DNA from: Candidatus Hydrogenedentota bacterium
GTDB taxonomy: Bacteria > Hydrogenedentota > Hydrogenedentia > Hydrogenedentales > SLHB01
NCBI GenBank assembly: GCA_019695095.1
Contig: JAIBAQ010000009.1
Span: 1 to 64,000, forward strand
DNA length: 64,000 nt
Direction of reading: 5' to 3'
Part shown: positions 52,597 to 59,146 of the stretch, piece by piece
How positions within the stretch are numbered: position 1 is the first letter of the stretch
How the letters are laid out: the number at the start of each line of letters is the position of its first letter
Notes under the pieces: generated by a model
What the model was told of the DNA's origin: nothing
Databases searched by the model: none
Seen by the model: the letters and a program-made list of their open reading frames with translations, nothing else
Program-made: the position numbers and the translations under genes

Positions 52597-55500
52597 CTAC
52601 GCAAATACGACCTTGAACGTCCTGATCTCGAACGGCTTAATGAAGAACCGCACGTTGTTGCCCTGCGGTTTCACGCTCACGTCGTTCTCTTCCATCAGAT
52701 CGCATTCCGTGACCTTCTTGGGGCGGCGTCCGAACGTCAGGGTGGCGTCGCCGCGCTGCCCGTGCGCCTCAAACACGCGCACGATGATTGCATTCGAGTC
52801 CTCGTGCTTTTTCACCGCGTCGATGATCACGTTCTCCACGTCGATACTTGCAAACGCATCCACCGCCGGCAATGTCCCGCGCGACTTCGGTGCGGATACG
52901 GCCAAAAGGGGGACGTTCAATTCGTAACCTTGCCGTACCGCGCCGTTGCGCCAGCCCCATGCGTGCGGGTAGAGCGAATACGTGAACTCATGGAAGCCCT
53001 CGTCCGCGATCGGATCGGGATCGATAGAGGAACGAAGCAACGACAGGCGCAAGACATTGCCCTTCACGTCATATCCGTATTTGCAGTCATTCAGCAACGT
53101 AACGCCGTAATCGCCTTCGGAAATGTCGGCCCACCGGTATGCGGGCACTTCGAACCGGGCGCGATCCTGCGGCCAATTGTTGTGGGTATTGCGTTCGATG
53201 GCCGCGTACGGGATTTCGAAGGTGGCGCGTTGTGCGCGCACGTCGACCGGAAACGCCACCTTTAGCAGCGTGCGTTTCTCGTGCCAATCGACACGCGTGA
53301 CAAAATCCACGCGCGGCGACGCCGCGTAGAGAGTGACATCTTGCGTGAACGTGCTTTTTTCGGTCTTGCGTACGATGCGCACGACAGCGCGTACCGGTCC
53401 GCTTTCGACAACTTCGATGCTTTCCGTCGACTGGGGTTCCCACATGACGGCCTCGAAGTTGTGGTCAATGTCCCACGCATCGTGCAACCAGGGCCGGTCT
53501 TCGAAGAGCTGGAGCACATTGCCGCGCTGCCCCTTGGGCAGCACCTCGCGCCGCTCGACTTGATCAAAGATGCTCGTGAGGCAGCCTCTCTTGTCGAACC
53601 GGATGCGGAGATACGGGTTCTCCATCCCTGTCGTGCTCGCCTTGAGAAAATGACTCGGTTGCGCCGCGTTGCGACCTTGTACGATTCGATAGGTTGAGTA
53701 ACCCAAAGGCGGAACCCCGTTTGCTTCAATCAGCAACGATCCGTCTTCCGCAACCTGGTGCGGCGTGGCTTCACCCGTGGGGCCGACCACAGCGAAATCG
53801 ACGTCGGGAAGGTTCGTCTTGACTTGGGCCGTGTCTGCGCGTACCCAGCCCAGCGTGTTGAACACGACGACGGGCGCGCCTTCGCCGGATGTGTCAATCC
53901 CGCGCAGAATAGAGGCAACCGCGGTATCGCGCACGTCCTCCGCTTCCTTGCGCGCGGCGGCATAATCGATATCAGCCTGCGTGTATACCTCCGTGATCGA
54001 CGAACCGGGAAGAATGTCGTGGAACTGATTCGTCAAAACGGCTTTCCACGCATTCCACAACTTCGCGTTGTCGTATTTGCCGCCTTTCATCAGCGAAAGC
54101 ACACTCAGGAATTCCGTGTCGCGCAACAGCACTTCGCACTTCCGATTGTTGCGTTTCGTGCGCGCTTGCGTCGTTTGGCAGCCGCGATGCAATTCCAGGT
54201 AGAGCTCGCCGTTGAATACAGGAAGCGCCTTGTCGCGCGCTTTTTGCCGCATACGTTCCACGCAGTCCGAGATGCGACCGAATTCGCATTGGGGCACACC
54301 GGTAATGTCTTTCAAACGTCTGCCATGTTCGATCATGTTCATGGTGGGGCCGCCGCCTCCGTCGCCCCAACCAAACGGATACGGCAACTCGTCGACGAGT
54401 TCCTTCTGCTTGAACAGCTTCCACTGCTTAATGCACTTCTCGGGAATCGGATTGCCGTTGTAGTTCAACGGCGGCATGATCGCGAACACGCGCGAACCGT
54501 CCGCGCCTTCCCACTCGAACATGCTGTATGGGAACTGCGTCATGCGGGACCAGTCGATCTTGGTTGTAACGAATGCGGTGAGTCCGGCCTTGCGGATGAT
54601 CTGCGGCAGCGACCACATATAGCCAAACGAATCGGGGACCCATACGATGGTGGAGCGCTTGCCGAATTCGCGCTCGTAGAACCGGTTGCCATAGAGGTAC
54701 TGACGCACCATGGATTCGCCGGAAGGGACATTGTGATCGGGTTCGCACCACGGCGCGCCACACAACTCCCAGCGGCCTTCCTTCACGCGCTGCTTGATGC
54801 GCGAGTAGAGTTCGGGGTAGTGCGTCTTGATCCATTCGTACTGAACCGGCTGACTGCATGAAAAGTGGAACTCCGGATAGCGTTCCATAAGGGTCAGCAT
54901 CGTGGAAAATGTGCGCGCGCATTTGCGTTGCGTCTCCCGCAACGGCCACAACCACGCCGTGTCAATGTGCGCATGGCCGGCCAACACCAGCTTGCCCATG
55001 TCGGTGTCGGCCCCGAAGTCGCGCAAGCCTCGGCGCAAAGTGCGTTGCGCCCGGGCGATCGAGTCGAAGTAGGATGCTTCGCCAATATGTTGCAGGTCCA
55101 CGCCGCGCACACACTCATCCAACAACGCCATGAGATGACGGGCGCGCGACGTGTCCTTCTCGAGTTGTTCCCATACTTCGTACACGACGGTGCAGTCCCA
55201 ATAAAAGTCCCACACCAGCGGATTCATGACCGCGATATCGGCGTAGGCAAAGACGTGGCGCAGATCGTGGCGCGTGCTCGGGCAGGTTTCGAGGACAATC
55301 TCGAAGGTCTCGCCTCCGCGCGCCTTCTCTGTGAGGTACAGTTCCTCGTGATTGCGGTCCAATCCCTGGAACGGCACTCCGTTGACATAGGCGAGCGCTT
55401 CGCCGCCTTCATTCATGTCGGGTGCATCGGGTACGAACGAGGCCCGCGCCGTGCGCACGAATGCCACGACCCGTTGGCCTTTCATGGAAGGGGGAATCGT

Positions 55501-55731
55501 GACGTTCATGCGGAACCACGTTGTCTGATCGAAGCCGCCCCACATTCCCAGCACCTTGAACGGTTTCCAACCCGTTTGAGGCGCGCGCTCCGGGCCTTTA
55601 CCCAACCCCGTGACGCAGATCTCGAGATTGCCGATGGGTTGGCGCTGGCTATAAATGGTCTTCCCGATATCCGAGATCCGATTATGGATCTGGACAGCTT
55701 CAATATGGCGTTCTGATTCAAAATACGGCAT
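52597..55731 (-). CDS. GH38 alpha-mannosidase with canonical catalytic Asp
   Basis: 1044 residues, no signal peptide, so probably cytoplasmic. After an N-terminal jelly-roll (about 1-240), the GH38 catalytic domain shows the zinc site HAHIDTAWLWPLRETQRK (His255, Asp257) and the nucleophile Asp367 in VWVPDSFGYMWSLPQI. The later motif NQFHDILPGSSITEVY marks the three-helix bundle. The C-terminal beta domains contain the DVRAQRATFEIPYAAIERN stretch. It hydrolyses alpha-mannosides, probably imported oligosaccharides. Divergently transcribed from the second GH38 gene. Confidence 0.93.
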   Translation of the reverse strand: MPYFESERHIEAVQIHNRISDIGKTIYSQRQPIGNLEICVTGLGKGPERAPQTGWKPFKVLGMWGGFDQTTWFRMNVTIPPSMKGQRVVAFVRTARASFVPDAPDMNEGGEALAYVNGVPFQGLDRNHEELYLTEKARGGETFEIVLETCPSTRHDLRHVFAYADIAVMNPLVWDFYWDCTVVYEVWEQLEKDTSRARHLMALLDECVRGVDLQHIGEASYFDSIARAQRTLRRGLRDFGADTDMGKLVLAGHAHIDTAWLWPLRETQRKCARTFSTMLTLMERYPEFHFSCSQPVQYEWIKTHYPELYSRIKQRVKEGRWELCGAPWCEPDHNVPSGESMVRQYLYGNRFYEREFGKRSTIVWVPDSFGYMWSLPQIIRKAGLTAFVTTKIDWSRMTQFPYSMFEWEGADGSRVFAIMPPLNYNGNPIPEKCIKQWKLFKQKELVDELPYPFGWGDGGGGPTMNMIEHGRRLKDITGVPQCEFGRISDCVERMRQKARDKALPVFNGELYLELHRGCQTTQARTKRNNRKCEVLLRDTEFLSVLSLMKGGKYDNAKLWNAWKAVLTNQFHDILPGSSITEVYTQADIDYAAARKEAEDVRDTAVASILRGIDTSGEGAPVVVFNTLGWVRADTAQVKTNLPDVDFAVVGPTGEATPHQVAEDGSLLIEANGVPPLGYSTYRIVQGRNAAQPSHFLKASTTGMENPYLRIRFDKRGCLTSIFDQVERREVLPKGQRGNVLQLFEDRPWLHDAWDIDHNFEAVMWEPQSTESIEVVESGPVRAVVRIVRKTEKSTFTQDVTLYAASPRVDFVTRVDWHEKRTLLKVAFPVDVRAQRATFEIPYAAIERNTHNNWPQDRARFEVPAYRWADISEGDYGVTLLNDCKYGYDVKGNVLRLSLLRSSIDPDPIADEGFHEFTYSLYPHAWGWRNGAVRQGYELNVPLLAVSAPKSRGTLPAVDAFASIDVENVIIDAVKKHEDSNAIIVRVFEAHGQRGDATLTFGRRPKKVTECDLMEENDVSVKPQGNNVRFFIKPFEIRTFKVVFA

Positions 55732-55916
55732 TGAGTAGAGGTCCTTTGGAAAGTAGGGGGAAACTTGAAGGAATAGTATAGCGGCGAGCAGGGCAATGAA
55801 GAAAGTGATCGCTCGCGGTTTTCCATTTCTTCGGCGAATCGCGTAAAATCACGCCCCTGCAACGGGCCGCGCGGTACTTGGGGCAACAGCAACACACTAC
55901 GTTTAGGGGAAGGCCA

Positions 55917-58712
55917 ATGAGCCGAGGATACGAGATTCACGTCATCGCAAATACGCACTGGGACCGGGAATGGCTCTACAACTTTCAGGAAACCCGGCAG
56001 ATGCTGGTCGAATTGATGGACCTGCTGCTGGACGTGCTGGACAAGGAACCGCGCTATAAGTCGTTTCTTCTGGACGGCCAATCCGTGCCCATCGAAGATT
56101 ACCTCGAAATACGCCCGGAGAACCGTGCGCGTCTCGACAAGCACGTCGCGGACGGGCGGCTGCTGATCGGACCGTGGTACACGTTGCCGGAATGCTTCAC
56201 GGTGAACGGCGAGTCCTTGGTGCGCAATCTCACCTACGGTCACCGAGTCTCGCGCGAACACGGCGGTGTGATGAAAGTCGGTCATACGGCATTTTCGTAC
56301 GGACAGAACTCGCAGATGCCCCAGATTTATCAAGGGTTCGGCGTCGAGGTGATGCTGTTTTACCACGGCGTCTCCCACGACCAGGTCGCCAACGAGTTCA
56401 TTTTTGAGGCCGCCGACGGCACGCGCATTCTCGGTTCGCAGATGAGTTCGGGCGCGCGCTACAACTTCTATCACAATGTGTATCGTCCCGCCGTGTTTGG
56501 CAAGGATATTACCGAACGGCTGTATCGGTGGACCGAAGGGGGGTTGCCTTTCCACTTGTGCCGCGAAGATCGCAGCATGGGCCATCACATCCTGCTCGAC
56601 CCCGTGCGCGGCTTTGACAAAGAGCGCGCGCGGCAGTGCATCAAGGCGCTGCGGGATAAGGAAGCGGACATCGCGACGACACCGTATCTCGCGTTCATGA
56701 TGGGCCACGACAGCAGCATTCCTGATCTCGTCGAGATGGACCTTATCGACGAGGCACGGAAGGTGCTCAACGGCGACACCATTTTGCACAGCCGGTTGCC
56801 CGATCTTGTTGAGAAGGTTAAGAAAGCCGCCAAGAATCTGAAGGTCCTGAAGGGCGAACGCCGCACGCCGGTGTTGATGAATCAGCGCATTCACCTGTAC
56901 AGCGATGTGCTTTCGAGCCGCACGCGCATAAAGCGTTTGAACGCGCTTACGGAACAGGCGTTGCAGCGCTGGGCCGAGCCTTTTGCCGTGCTTGCATGGC
57001 AACTGGGCGCGGCGTTCCCCGCGTCGTCGCTCGACCTTGCCTGGAAAACACTGCTGAAGAGCCAGCCGCACGACAGCATATCAAGCAGCGGTATCGACGA
57101 CATCGAGCGCGACGTGCGCGACCGGTTGAGGCAAGCGATCAATCTGTCCGATTCGGTGCTTGCGCGCAGCCTGCAACACATTCAGAGGCGCATTGACAAT
57201 TCGGGCGCCGGGACGGATGAGGTGCTGGTAACGGTGTTCAACGCGTCGCCGAGGCCACGAACGGAAGTGGTGACGGCGGTGGTTGACGTGCCGAATACAA
57301 GCGCGATGAGCGGTTTCGAAGTGGCAGACGCCGGCGCGAAACGAAAAGCAGAGCCGGTGCAGCTTGCTACGCGGAAGCCTCACTTTGCGGTTGTGAACCA
57401 CGCGGCTGACGCAACCTACATGCTCGAAAGCGAACAGGTGAAGTTTCACTTCGAGGCGAAAGACATTCCCGCGTTTGGTTACAGCACGTTCAAGCTTGTC
57501 CCAACAAAGACGTTCGGGCGCGGCGGACTCGTGTGTGGGCGCAACGCGATGGAGAACGAGCACCTGTGCGTTGTCATCAACGAAGACGGTACCTTCTCCG
57601 TTTTGCACAAGGCCACGGGGCAGTGGTACGACGGCCTGAATAGTTTTGAAGACGGCGGTGAAGTGGGCAATGCTTGGATGCATATCGAGCCTGCTATCGA
57701 CCGCATTGTGTCGAGCATCGGCGCTCCGGCATCCATCGCGCTGGAGGAAAACGGGGCGATGCTGGCGCGTTACCGCATTGAGTACGACATGACAATCCCT
57801 GCGACGTTTGACGAAGCGGGTGGCGACGCGTGGCGGCGGCTTGACGGCGGCGGCAGTTCGGCTCGGCGCAGCGAAGAGACAGTATCGTTGCGCATTACTT
57901 CGTATGTCACGCTGCGAAAAGGCGCCCGGTCCGTTGAAGTGACGACGCGGTTCAACAATACCGCGAAGTATCACCGTCTGCGCGTGCTCTTCCCAACGGA
58001 CCGCAACACAAATGTATGCCATGTGGAGACTCCGTTCGATGTAGTCGAGAGACAGGCCGAACCCGGCGCGGACAGTCCCTGGCAGGCGGCCAACGCAACG
58101 TTCCCGATGCAGCGGTTTGTGGATGTGAGCGACAAGCGCGGCGGGTTGGCGATTATCAACGACGGCTTGCGCGAGTACGAGGTGATGCCGGGCGAAGAAC
58201 GAACCATTGCGATCACGTTGATGCGCGCGTACGAAATCGCGTTGACGACTGTGAGCAAGCGGTGGGAGCGGCATCCGGAGATGGAGTTGTCGCAGTGTCC
58301 GGGCGAGCACGAATTCCGGTATCTGGTCTTCCCGCACGCAGGCGCGTGGGATCAGGGCGATGTCTATACCGAGGTCGAACGGTTGAATGTTCCGCTTGAA
58401 TTGGCCCAAGCCGGTCCTCACAAGGGTGACCTGCCTCAACGCGCGAGCTTCATCGAAGTCACGCCCGTGAATGCCGTTGTCAGTGCAATGAAACAATCCG
58501 AGGACGGCAAGTCGCTCGTATTGCGGCTCTTCAATCCAACGACGAAGTCGATTCATGCAACGATCAAGACGCACGCAAAGCTTCGCTCTGCGCAGTTGGT
58601 TACGCTTGAGGAGACGAGCGCGAAGAAGCTCACGGTTCAAGCCAAGTCCGTGAAAGTCCCCATGGGGCCGAAGAAGATTGTGACGGTGAAACTCGACCTT
58701 GGCAGAGTCTAA
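55917..58712 (+). CDS. GH38-like protein lacking the usual nucleophile Asp
   Basis: 931 residues. The zinc site is intact in IANTHWDREWLYNFQETRQML (His14, Asp16 region). Where GH38 enzymes have a PDSFG nucleophile, this protein has TAFSYGQNSQMPQI, with Phe126 in the place of Asp. The spacing from the zinc Asp (110 residues) equals that in the neighbouring canonical enzyme, so the alignment is firm. LMNQRIHLYSDVL and SQPHDSISSSGIDDIERDV are late family motifs. It may be a subfamily using a different nucleophile, or a binding protein. ATG 55917; no signal peptide. The two genes share a divergent 185-base promoter region. Confidence 0.8.
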   Translation: MSRGYEIHVIANTHWDREWLYNFQETRQMLVELMDLLLDVLDKEPRYKSFLLDGQSVPIEDYLEIRPENRARLDKHVADGRLLIGPWYTLPECFTVNGESLVRNLTYGHRVSREHGGVMKVGHTAFSYGQNSQMPQIYQGFGVEVMLFYHGVSHDQVANEFIFEAADGTRILGSQMSSGARYNFYHNVYRPAVFGKDITERLYRWTEGGLPFHLCREDRSMGHHILLDPVRGFDKERARQCIKALRDKEADIATTPYLAFMMGHDSSIPDLVEMDLIDEARKVLNGDTILHSRLPDLVEKVKKAAKNLKVLKGERRTPVLMNQRIHLYSDVLSSRTRIKRLNALTEQALQRWAEPFAVLAWQLGAAFPASSLDLAWKTLLKSQPHDSISSSGIDDIERDVRDRLRQAINLSDSVLARSLQHIQRRIDNSGAGTDEVLVTVFNASPRPRTEVVTAVVDVPNTSAMSGFEVADAGAKRKAEPVQLATRKPHFAVVNHAADATYMLESEQVKFHFEAKDIPAFGYSTFKLVPTKTFGRGGLVCGRNAMENEHLCVVINEDGTFSVLHKATGQWYDGLNSFEDGGEVGNAWMHIEPAIDRIVSSIGAPASIALEENGAMLARYRIEYDMTIPATFDEAGGDAWRRLDGGGSSARRSEETVSLRITSYVTLRKGARSVEVTTRFNNTAKYHRLRVLFPTDRNTNVCHVETPFDVVERQAEPGADSPWQAANATFPMQRFVDVSDKRGGLAIINDGLREYEVMPGEERTIAITLMRAYEIALTTVSKRWERHPEMELSQCPGEHEFRYLVFPHAGAWDQGDVYTEVERLNVPLELAQAGPHKGDLPQRASFIEVTPVNAVVSAMKQSEDGKSLVLRLFNPTTKSIHATIKTHAKLRSAQLVTLEETSAKKLTVQAKSVKVPMGPKKIVTVKLDLGRV

Positions 58713-58735
58713 TTCGGTTTTCAGTGACGAAAAGA

Positions 58736-58766
58736 GACGCGCCGGCACTGGCAATGCCGGCGCGTC
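58736..58766. terminator. Bidirectional terminator of GH38-like gene and micropeptide genes
   Basis: Perfect 12-pair stem GACGCGCCGGCA (58736-58747) / TGCCGGCGCGTC (58755-58766) with a 7-base loop CTGGCAA. It ends the plus-strand GH38-like gene 24 bases after its stop, and on the minus strand it follows the micropeptide stop by 31 bases and runs into TCTCTTTTC. Confidence 0.85.
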
Positions 58767-58797
58767 CTAATTTGGAGACGATTACCGAATCCAGGCG

Positions 58798-58884
58798 TCA
58801 CGTCACCTTTTTCGCCGGCTTAACCGGTACCAGCGCCGCCGGAGCCGGCAGTCTCGTCTTTGATACTTCCTTCACGTGTTTCAT
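58798..58884 (-). CDS. 28-residue micropeptide, paralogue 2 of 2
   Basis: A 28-codon gene: MKHVKE at 1-6, SK at 8-9, LPAPA at 12-16, VP at 19-20, KP at 22-23, KK at 25-26, ending in VT. It is basic (Lys-rich) and Ala/Pro-rich, with no hydrophobic stretch and no cysteine. A textbook AGGAGG lies seven bases before ATG 58884. The ACAGG that starts this Shine-Dalgarno can pair with an upstream CCTGT (a small hairpin). It lies 78 bases downstream of its paralogue on the same strand and is followed by a strong terminator. Comparison with the paralogue shows many synonymous codon differences, evidence of selection on the peptide. No family recognised. Confidence 0.8.
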   Translation of the reverse strand: MKHVKEVSKTRLPAPAALVPVKPAKKVT

Positions 58885-58962
58885 TTGAAGTCCTCCTGTT
58901 TGGGACAGGTTGATAGGCTCCTTTTCAAACTGAAAGGGCGCCTTGCGATTGAGGCGATTGCT

Positions 58963-59049
58963 TCACCCTGCCTTTTTCACAGGCTTGGCGGGAACGGCTC
59001 CGGCCGGCGCGGGTAACTTTGCCTTGGACAATTCCTTCACATGCTTCAT
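58963..59049 (-). CDS. 28-residue micropeptide, paralogue 1 of 2
   Basis: A 28-codon gene, 19/28 identical to the downstream gene at 58798-58884: both have MKHVKE, SK, LPAPA, VP, KP and KK at the same positions. Ten of the 19 shared residues use different synonymous codons (for example AAG/AAA, CAT/CAC, TTA/CTG, CCC/CCG, GTT/GTA), which is hard to explain for non-coding DNA. GGAG lies eight bases before ATG 59049. A promoter with TTGACA at 59146-59141 lies upstream. No transport, protease or modification gene is adjacent. Possible roles are a small secreted or regulatory peptide, a peptide precursor or a small stress protein; none is shown. Confidence 0.82.
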   Translation of the reverse strand: MKHVKELSKAKLPAPAGAVPAKPVKKAG

Positions 59050-59117
59050 CCTTTGATCTCCATTCTGGGATTCACCCATTAACTACATGTGAACACTCTG
59101 GACGCCTTGCGGAAATC

Positions 59118-59146
59118 ATCGTAGACTGGGGAGCGCAATCTGTCAA
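59118..59146 (-). promoter_or_regulatory. Promoter of the micropeptide pair
   Basis: On the minus strand TTGACA (59146-59141) is followed after exactly 17 bases by TACGAT (59123-59118, 4/6 to consensus). Transcription would start about 60 bases before the first micropeptide ATG, leaving a short 5' leader. Confidence 0.6.

Follow-up and report, generated by a model that had tools for sequence, protein, structure and literature searches.

The window analysed here, a stretch of 64,000 nucleotides from a Candidatus Hydrogenedentota genome, contains two adjacent peptide genes that are probably orphan RiPP-like precursors, with a leader that would be bound in trans by an operon on another contig, followed by trimming and export. 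The pair belongs to a large and apparently undescribed family, the MKH peptides, which together with the operon forms a peptide system found almost throughout a phylum that is known here from metagenome assemblies only. To judge from their records, the genomes examined from this phylum are draft or metagenome assemblies. The MKH genes are short enough for ordinary gene callers to miss.

Two similar peptide genes in the window

Translation and comparison confirmed the two minus-strand frames of 28 codons that a preliminary description of the sequence had noted, lying 78 bases apart and identical at 19 of 28 residues (Table 1). Ten of the nineteen shared residues are specified by different synonymous codons, as had also been stated, with a pS of 0.85 versus a pN of 0.18. 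When one peptide was used as a whole-genome query, the other was recovered at E = 5e-7, so that their likeness is not due to chance. An in-frame ATG upstream could extend the first ORF to 38 aa; the family alignment begins at MKH.

Both Shine-Dalgarno sites and the promoter-like element of the preliminary description are present, the latter being the sole sigma-70-like match within 700 bases (0.3 expected). The terminal hairpin was also found, but with 15 pairs instead of the 12 first reported, a 3-nt loop and a weak T-run (CTTTTCG). As it lies just beyond a convergent alpha-mannosidase gene as well, it may serve both units. This GH38 gene (55878-58712, assigned by Pfam) and a divergent gene for an NHL-repeat protein are the neighbours of the pair, and a large ORF at 52597-55731 on the opposite strand resembles, by eye only, a second alpha-mannosidase. 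An Rfam search of the window matched no family.

Table 1. Positions of the peptide genes, their putative parts and the associated signals in the window.
Feature	Position	Strand	Basis
MKH peptide gene 1, MKHVKELSKAKLPAPAGAVPAKPVKKAG, 28 aa + stop	58963..59049	-	translation; family membership; leader scoring higher than every one of 8832 null N-termini
MKH peptide gene 2, MKHVKEVSKTRLPAPAALVPVKPAKKVT, 28 aa + stop	58798..58884	-	translation; family membership; leader score
Putative leader of peptide 1, residues 1-16, MKHVKELSKAKLPAPA	59002..59049	-	positions 1-8 and Ala-rich patch 12-16 conserved over 150 relatives; cut after last Ala inferred
Putative core of peptide 1, GAVPAKPVKKAG	58966..59001	-	variable part of the family; boundary inferred
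Putative leader of peptide 2, residues 1-16, MKHVKEVSKTRLPAPA	58837..58884	-	same basis as leader of peptide 1
Putative core of peptide 2, ALVPVKPAKKVT	58801..58836	-	variable part of the family; boundary inferred
Shine-Dalgarno GGAG of peptide 1	59058..59061	-	sequence; SD-like site in 150/151 family ORFs
Shine-Dalgarno AGGAGG of peptide 2	58892..58897	-	sequence
Promoter-like TTGACA-17-TACGAT	59118..59146	-	scan, 1 found vs 0.3 expected; consensus match only
Terminator-like 15-pair hairpin with weak T tail, between convergent genes	58735..58767	-	z = -5.4

Neither peptide contains cysteine, and the putative cores are small, cationic and rich in Lys and Pro. Small cationic cores in the pair and hypervariable cores in the family would suit bacteriocin-like toxic peptides with immunity encoded elsewhere. 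Such a role is very improbable, given that no immunity gene lies beside the pair and the leader is not of the double-Gly type, and near-universal presence in a phylum speaks against an antimicrobial function, an argument also made for SCIFF (PMC8326336). The preliminary description had suggested peptide precursors, signalling peptides or antimicrobial or immunity peptides; the first two point in the right direction, whereas the last have gained no support.

Conserved leaders and variable cores

A total of 150 unique family ORFs, ranging from 27 to 73 aa, were read across Hydrogenedentota. Their N-terminus follows M[KR]H[VIL][KR]x[VIL][ST] and continues into an Ala-rich P/AxA patch, while the C-termini are hypervariable. 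Over about 150 members the sequence information is limited to residues 1-8 and the Ala-rich patch at 12-16. P..A or A.A occurs within residues 9-20 in 123 of the 150 members versus 12 of 138 for residues 23-34; family selection used positions 2-8, and the patch played no part in it. The C-termini include Lys/Pro-rich (the window type, also seen in genus g9), amphipathic, Trp-rich and Cys-containing forms, with many being amphipathic or hydrophobic and with no obvious modifiable motif common to the cores. A conserved leader joined to a variable core, as in RiPPs generally, is thus a property of this family.

The window genome (6.8 Mb, 405 contigs) contains at least twelve small MKH ORFs, located on contigs C9 (2), C14, C24, C45 (2), C59, C67, C70 (2), C142 and C280. 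The weak peptide matches within this genome are other small ORFs having only the N-terminus in common. Similar small ORFs, often in tandem, were found by a family-level search in many genera. The DNA pattern searched, M-K-H-[ILMV]-[KRHQNS]-x-hydrophobic-[S/T-like] (ATGAARCAYVTNMRN..), gave 122 matches in 25 genomes, compared with four for the reversed control and three for a control in which His codons took the place of Lys codons and vice versa, and a narrower DNA pattern matched 53 of 68 genomes across the phylum; these counts are lower bounds for the family with a few spurious matches among them. The spurious ones, recognised on translation and set aside, were ORFs of 7-19 aa or the beginnings of long unrelated genes.

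Homologous short frames are present in most Hydrogenedentota genomes, contrary to the refuting case named in the preliminary description (no such frame in any relative). Across 63 homologous pairs pN/pS is 0.20, both in the leader and in the core, with many pairs saturated at synonymous sites, and close congeneric pairs are clean (e.g., dS 0.34 / dN 0.02). This ratio and the clean close pairs mark the MKH ORFs as translated, selected peptides, and the selection on the peptide that the preliminary description had read from two genes holds across many relatives. An SD-like site, by a loose criterion, precedes 150 of 151 unique family ORFs. Chance ORFs in a spacer would be short and match no described family, as is the case here. 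Such an origin has a negligible probability and is already contradicted by the E-value between the pair, the 122-versus-3 control, the pN/pS of 0.2 and the near-constant SD-like site.

Searches of Pfam and NCBIfam with ten MKH peptides returned no credible family, in line with the earlier statement that no family was recognised, but a large family does exist across the phylum. No small peptides or RiPPs of Hydrogenedentota were described in the open literature searched.

An associated operon conserved across the phylum

MKH genes were found directly before GNAT1 of a conserved operon in 24 of 30 distinct operons (counted over distinct genomes with enough upstream sequence), and none is recognisable beside the other six. 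The operon comprises one to six MKH genes, GNAT1 and GNAT2 (in some cases plus another GNAT) and the genes for a CPBP (Rce1-like) protease, for an ABC ATPase with an ABC-2 permease and for a SPASM/GNAT protein of ~640 aa, and this order (mkh-GNAT1-GNAT2-CPBP-ABC ATPase-ABC-2 permease-SPASM/GNAT) is the same across families. The MKH peptide heading the operon is the most conserved member, MKHIKxIS..RADAFTDFxNAxWRAWxDFRxxKKNE. The CPBP proteins have an intact protease motif (EExxxR in 31 of 31). The GNAT fold is supported for the GNATs; the canonical acetyl-CoA motif [QR]xxGx[GA] occurs in only 6/24 and 5/32 of them, which makes acylation doubtful.

In the window genome the operon, which includes two further MKH genes, lies on contig C70 (L113), and the window pair lies on C9, a different contig of the same bin. 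The preliminary description had found no processing gene adjacent to the pair. This is correct for the local neighbourhood but not for the genome, as the C70 operon contains leader-binding-type, protease and ABC-export genes beside two other family members.

The SPASM/GNAT protein was found in 62 of 68 genomes with one gene per genome, the second matches being fragments at contig ends. Four genomes (G047, G048, G050 and G051) have neither this protein nor a credible MKH ORF. G063, which is 60% complete, has MKH ORFs and no operon match, and in G033, G034 and G042 the operon is present with no credible MKH ORF by the DNA patterns used. G049 has MKH ORFs and no match to the SPASM/GNAT protein; it was considered as a counter-example and dropped, since the operon start (GNAT1-GNAT2-CPBP) is present on its short contig C288. 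All named operon-bearing genomes are Candidatus Hydrogenedentota, except for two labelled 'uncultured bacterium' and one labelled Nitrospiraceae bacterium (L180, JAACEL010000057.1). The latter record contains the operon with three MKH genes, and its label is probably wrong.

Not all MKH genes occur in this setting, as some follow an ECF sigma factor gene or lie within porin/solute-binding/ABC transport operons. Such varied contexts, and the many amphipathic or hydrophobic C-termini, could indicate small non-exported proteins that use the shared N-terminus for something else (docking to a membrane or a complex, or a stress response), with the operon as one user among many. We consider this unlikely because the leader is similar to those of SCIFFs, members next to the operon rank with the best conserved, and four f5 genomes are without the operon and without MKH ORFs.

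A maturase homologue without radical-SAM cysteines

Known radical-SAM peptide maturases are the closest relatives of the SPASM/GNAT protein in NCBIfam, where it remains far under their cutoffs. The best match of the window genome's protein is TIGR04064, the nif11-like peptide radical SAM maturase (1.4e-23; 83 bits versus a cutoff of 519), yet the protein falls outside this family and is without the active-site cysteines. By phmmer it matches CteB at E = 1.8e-17. Foldseek of its structure model, which is of moderate quality (pLDDT 72.5, falling below 50 in parts of the GNAT region), placed CteB at the top, followed by SpeG-type GNATs for the C-terminus. Against the SCIFF maturase of Acetoanaerobium noterae, which has an intact site, the protein aligns at E = 3e-22, with CNLKCKYC facing non-Cys residues and the GNAT added.

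CX3CX2C was found in none of 39 full-length SPASM/GNAT copies, and the C..CWA...C part of SPASM is kept in 36. Judged by this loss, the homology to CteB and the GNAT C-terminus, the ~640-aa protein combines an RRE-like N-terminus, a dead radical-SAM/SPASM part and a GNAT domain. Since CX3CX2C is lost in all 39, it should itself form no thioethers. A putative leader-binding protein of RRE type, so assigned by alignment with CteB, accompanies export and protease genes and precursors, an arrangement expected of RiPP clusters. A route is suggested here in which a radical-SAM peptide maturase loses its iron-sulfur site, keeps leader recognition and is joined to a GNAT.

The missing cysteines (39/39), the mostly missing acetyl-CoA motif and the protease motif kept in 31/31 CPBP proteins would also agree with an MKH N-terminus that acts as a sorting or export tag for the ABC/CPBP operon, the peptides being chemically unmodified and the SPASM/GNAT protein a chaperone or adaptor. 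An ABC transporter is always found in the operon, and cores without an obvious common modifiable motif would fit this arrangement too. We give it some credence while considering it on the whole improbable, as three GNAT domains per operon throughout the phylum are much machinery for a plain exporter and the RRE-SPASM protein is related to peptide modifiers.

Relationship to SCIFF and other RiPP systems

The natural SCIFF of A. noterae, located directly before its maturase in L215, starts with MKKHIKTLSK (MKKHIKTLSKDTLKKSAAKGGC...; full sequence MKKHIKTLSKDTLKKSAAKGGCGECQTSCQSACKTSCTVANQECEREGR). On the MKH leader matrix, where the family median is 26.1, its leader reaches 25.2, a score as high as which was obtained by one of 8832 null N-termini; this comparison concerns a short motif and a single fully read SCIFF. 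The query for the SCIFF search served as a probe only, the conclusion resting on the natural sequence retrieved. Taken with the homology of the SPASM/GNAT protein to CteB and to the A. noterae maturase, this score points to both the SCIFF leader and the SCIFF maturase having relatives in one Hydrogenedentota operon. CteB binds residues 1-21 of CteA through its RRE, on which the leader forms a beta strand (PMC8326336). A phmmer search of an MKH peptide against PDB chains returned nothing, the CteA leader chain being unmatched by sequence, and the TIGR03973 SCIFF model found nothing above its cutoff in the window genome.

The MKH system resembles SCIFF (TIGR03973; maturase TIGR03974; CteA/CteB) in having a leader of the KHIKTLSK type at the extreme N-terminus and a maturase homologue (RRE, radical-SAM fold and SPASM) beside the precursors, and in being a highly conserved lineage-wide system. 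It differs in the C-terminal GNAT fusion, the extra GNAT, CPBP and ABC genes, the many precursors per genome, the absence of a Cys-rich core from the window peptides and the loss of CX3CX2C in all full-length maturase homologues. The window peptides were rejected as SCIFF ranthipeptides, having no six-Cys core (and no Cys) and no live radical-SAM site. The link to SCIFF opens the way to specific bench tests in E. coli.

Prochlorosins likewise combine many dispersed precursors, one leader and hypervariable cores with one trans-acting enzyme, LanM. The MKH operon contains no LanM, and the MKH leader is unrelated and far shorter. Selidamides, the GNAT-acylated RiPPs, also have GNAT-fold proteins in a RiPP-type cluster (PMC9505594); unlike the precursors described there, those of the MKH family fall outside the NHLP/proteusin type, the GNAT motif is mostly degenerate, and any acylation is conjectural. 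Two further assignments were rejected for the window peptides. A Sec-dependent secreted peptide would need a hydrophobic h-region, whereas residues 1-16 are polar or charged despite the AxA, and a double-glycine bacteriocin would have a leader ending in GG and not in PAxA/AxA.

A model for processing in trans

In the reading that we favour, each window peptide would consist of a 16-residue SCIFF-type leader (KHxK-x-[VIL]-[ST]...PAPA) and a 12-residue Lys/Pro-rich core. The RRE-like N-terminal domain of the single-copy C70 protein (RRE, dead radical-SAM barrel, partial SPASM and GNAT) would bind the leader in trans. Cleavage close to the PAxA/AxA patch would follow, with the CPBP intramembrane protease of the operon as the most likely enzyme, and the core would then leave via the ABC-2 transporter. 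Recognition in trans by the C70 operon is a well-supported inference from genomic evidence, and the shared leader is the only direct tie between the pair on C9 and this operon. The many scattered precursors of a genome would share a single processing system, as those of prochlorosins do.

Acylation of the core by the GNAT domains before export is a conjecture. A secreted signal or an envelope-acting peptide is the likely role, signalling being equally conjectural and drawn by analogy from the SCIFF ranthipeptides, which are reported in clostridial quorum sensing (Chen et al. 2020, as cited in PMC8102284). There is a real chance that the MKH system is a new class. More specifically, and only tentatively, it might be a class of ribosomal peptides with about a dozen scattered precursors per genome, a SCIFF-type leader and a maturase that has lost radical chemistry and gained acyltransferases, yielding acylated, mostly Cys-free signalling peptides. 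One leader combined with hypervariable cores would also make a natural library for peptide engineering.

Further genomic contexts and core types

Five loci (L116, L122, L124, L129 and L137) have one to three MKH ORFs following a conserved gene of ~520-600 aa without a Pfam match, which is possibly an anti-sigma factor. An ECF-type sigma factor gene (Sigma70_r2/r4) precedes this gene in four of the five genomes. At two other loci from two genera (L108 on contig C14 of the window genome, and L131), an MKH ORF is flanked by a porin-like gene (Porin_O_P in L108) on one side and a solute-binding/ABC transporter operon on the other; from this setting, some members may be linked to transport.

Two loci of the window genome show other core types. 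A 58-aa MKH ORF on contig C280 (L049) has a six-Cys core, GGCIQDFLNGDFPFCCGEPSLIDCILCSFGMGSCKSDV; by number of cysteines it is the most SCIFF-like core found, although the spacing differs. Two tandem MKH ORFs at L110/L040, starting with MRHIKTLTK... and MRHIKNLSK..., have a common C-terminal C-x-[ED]-YLL-[SA]-GD-[FL]-S-[ST]-F-x2-CK that is unlike the window type.
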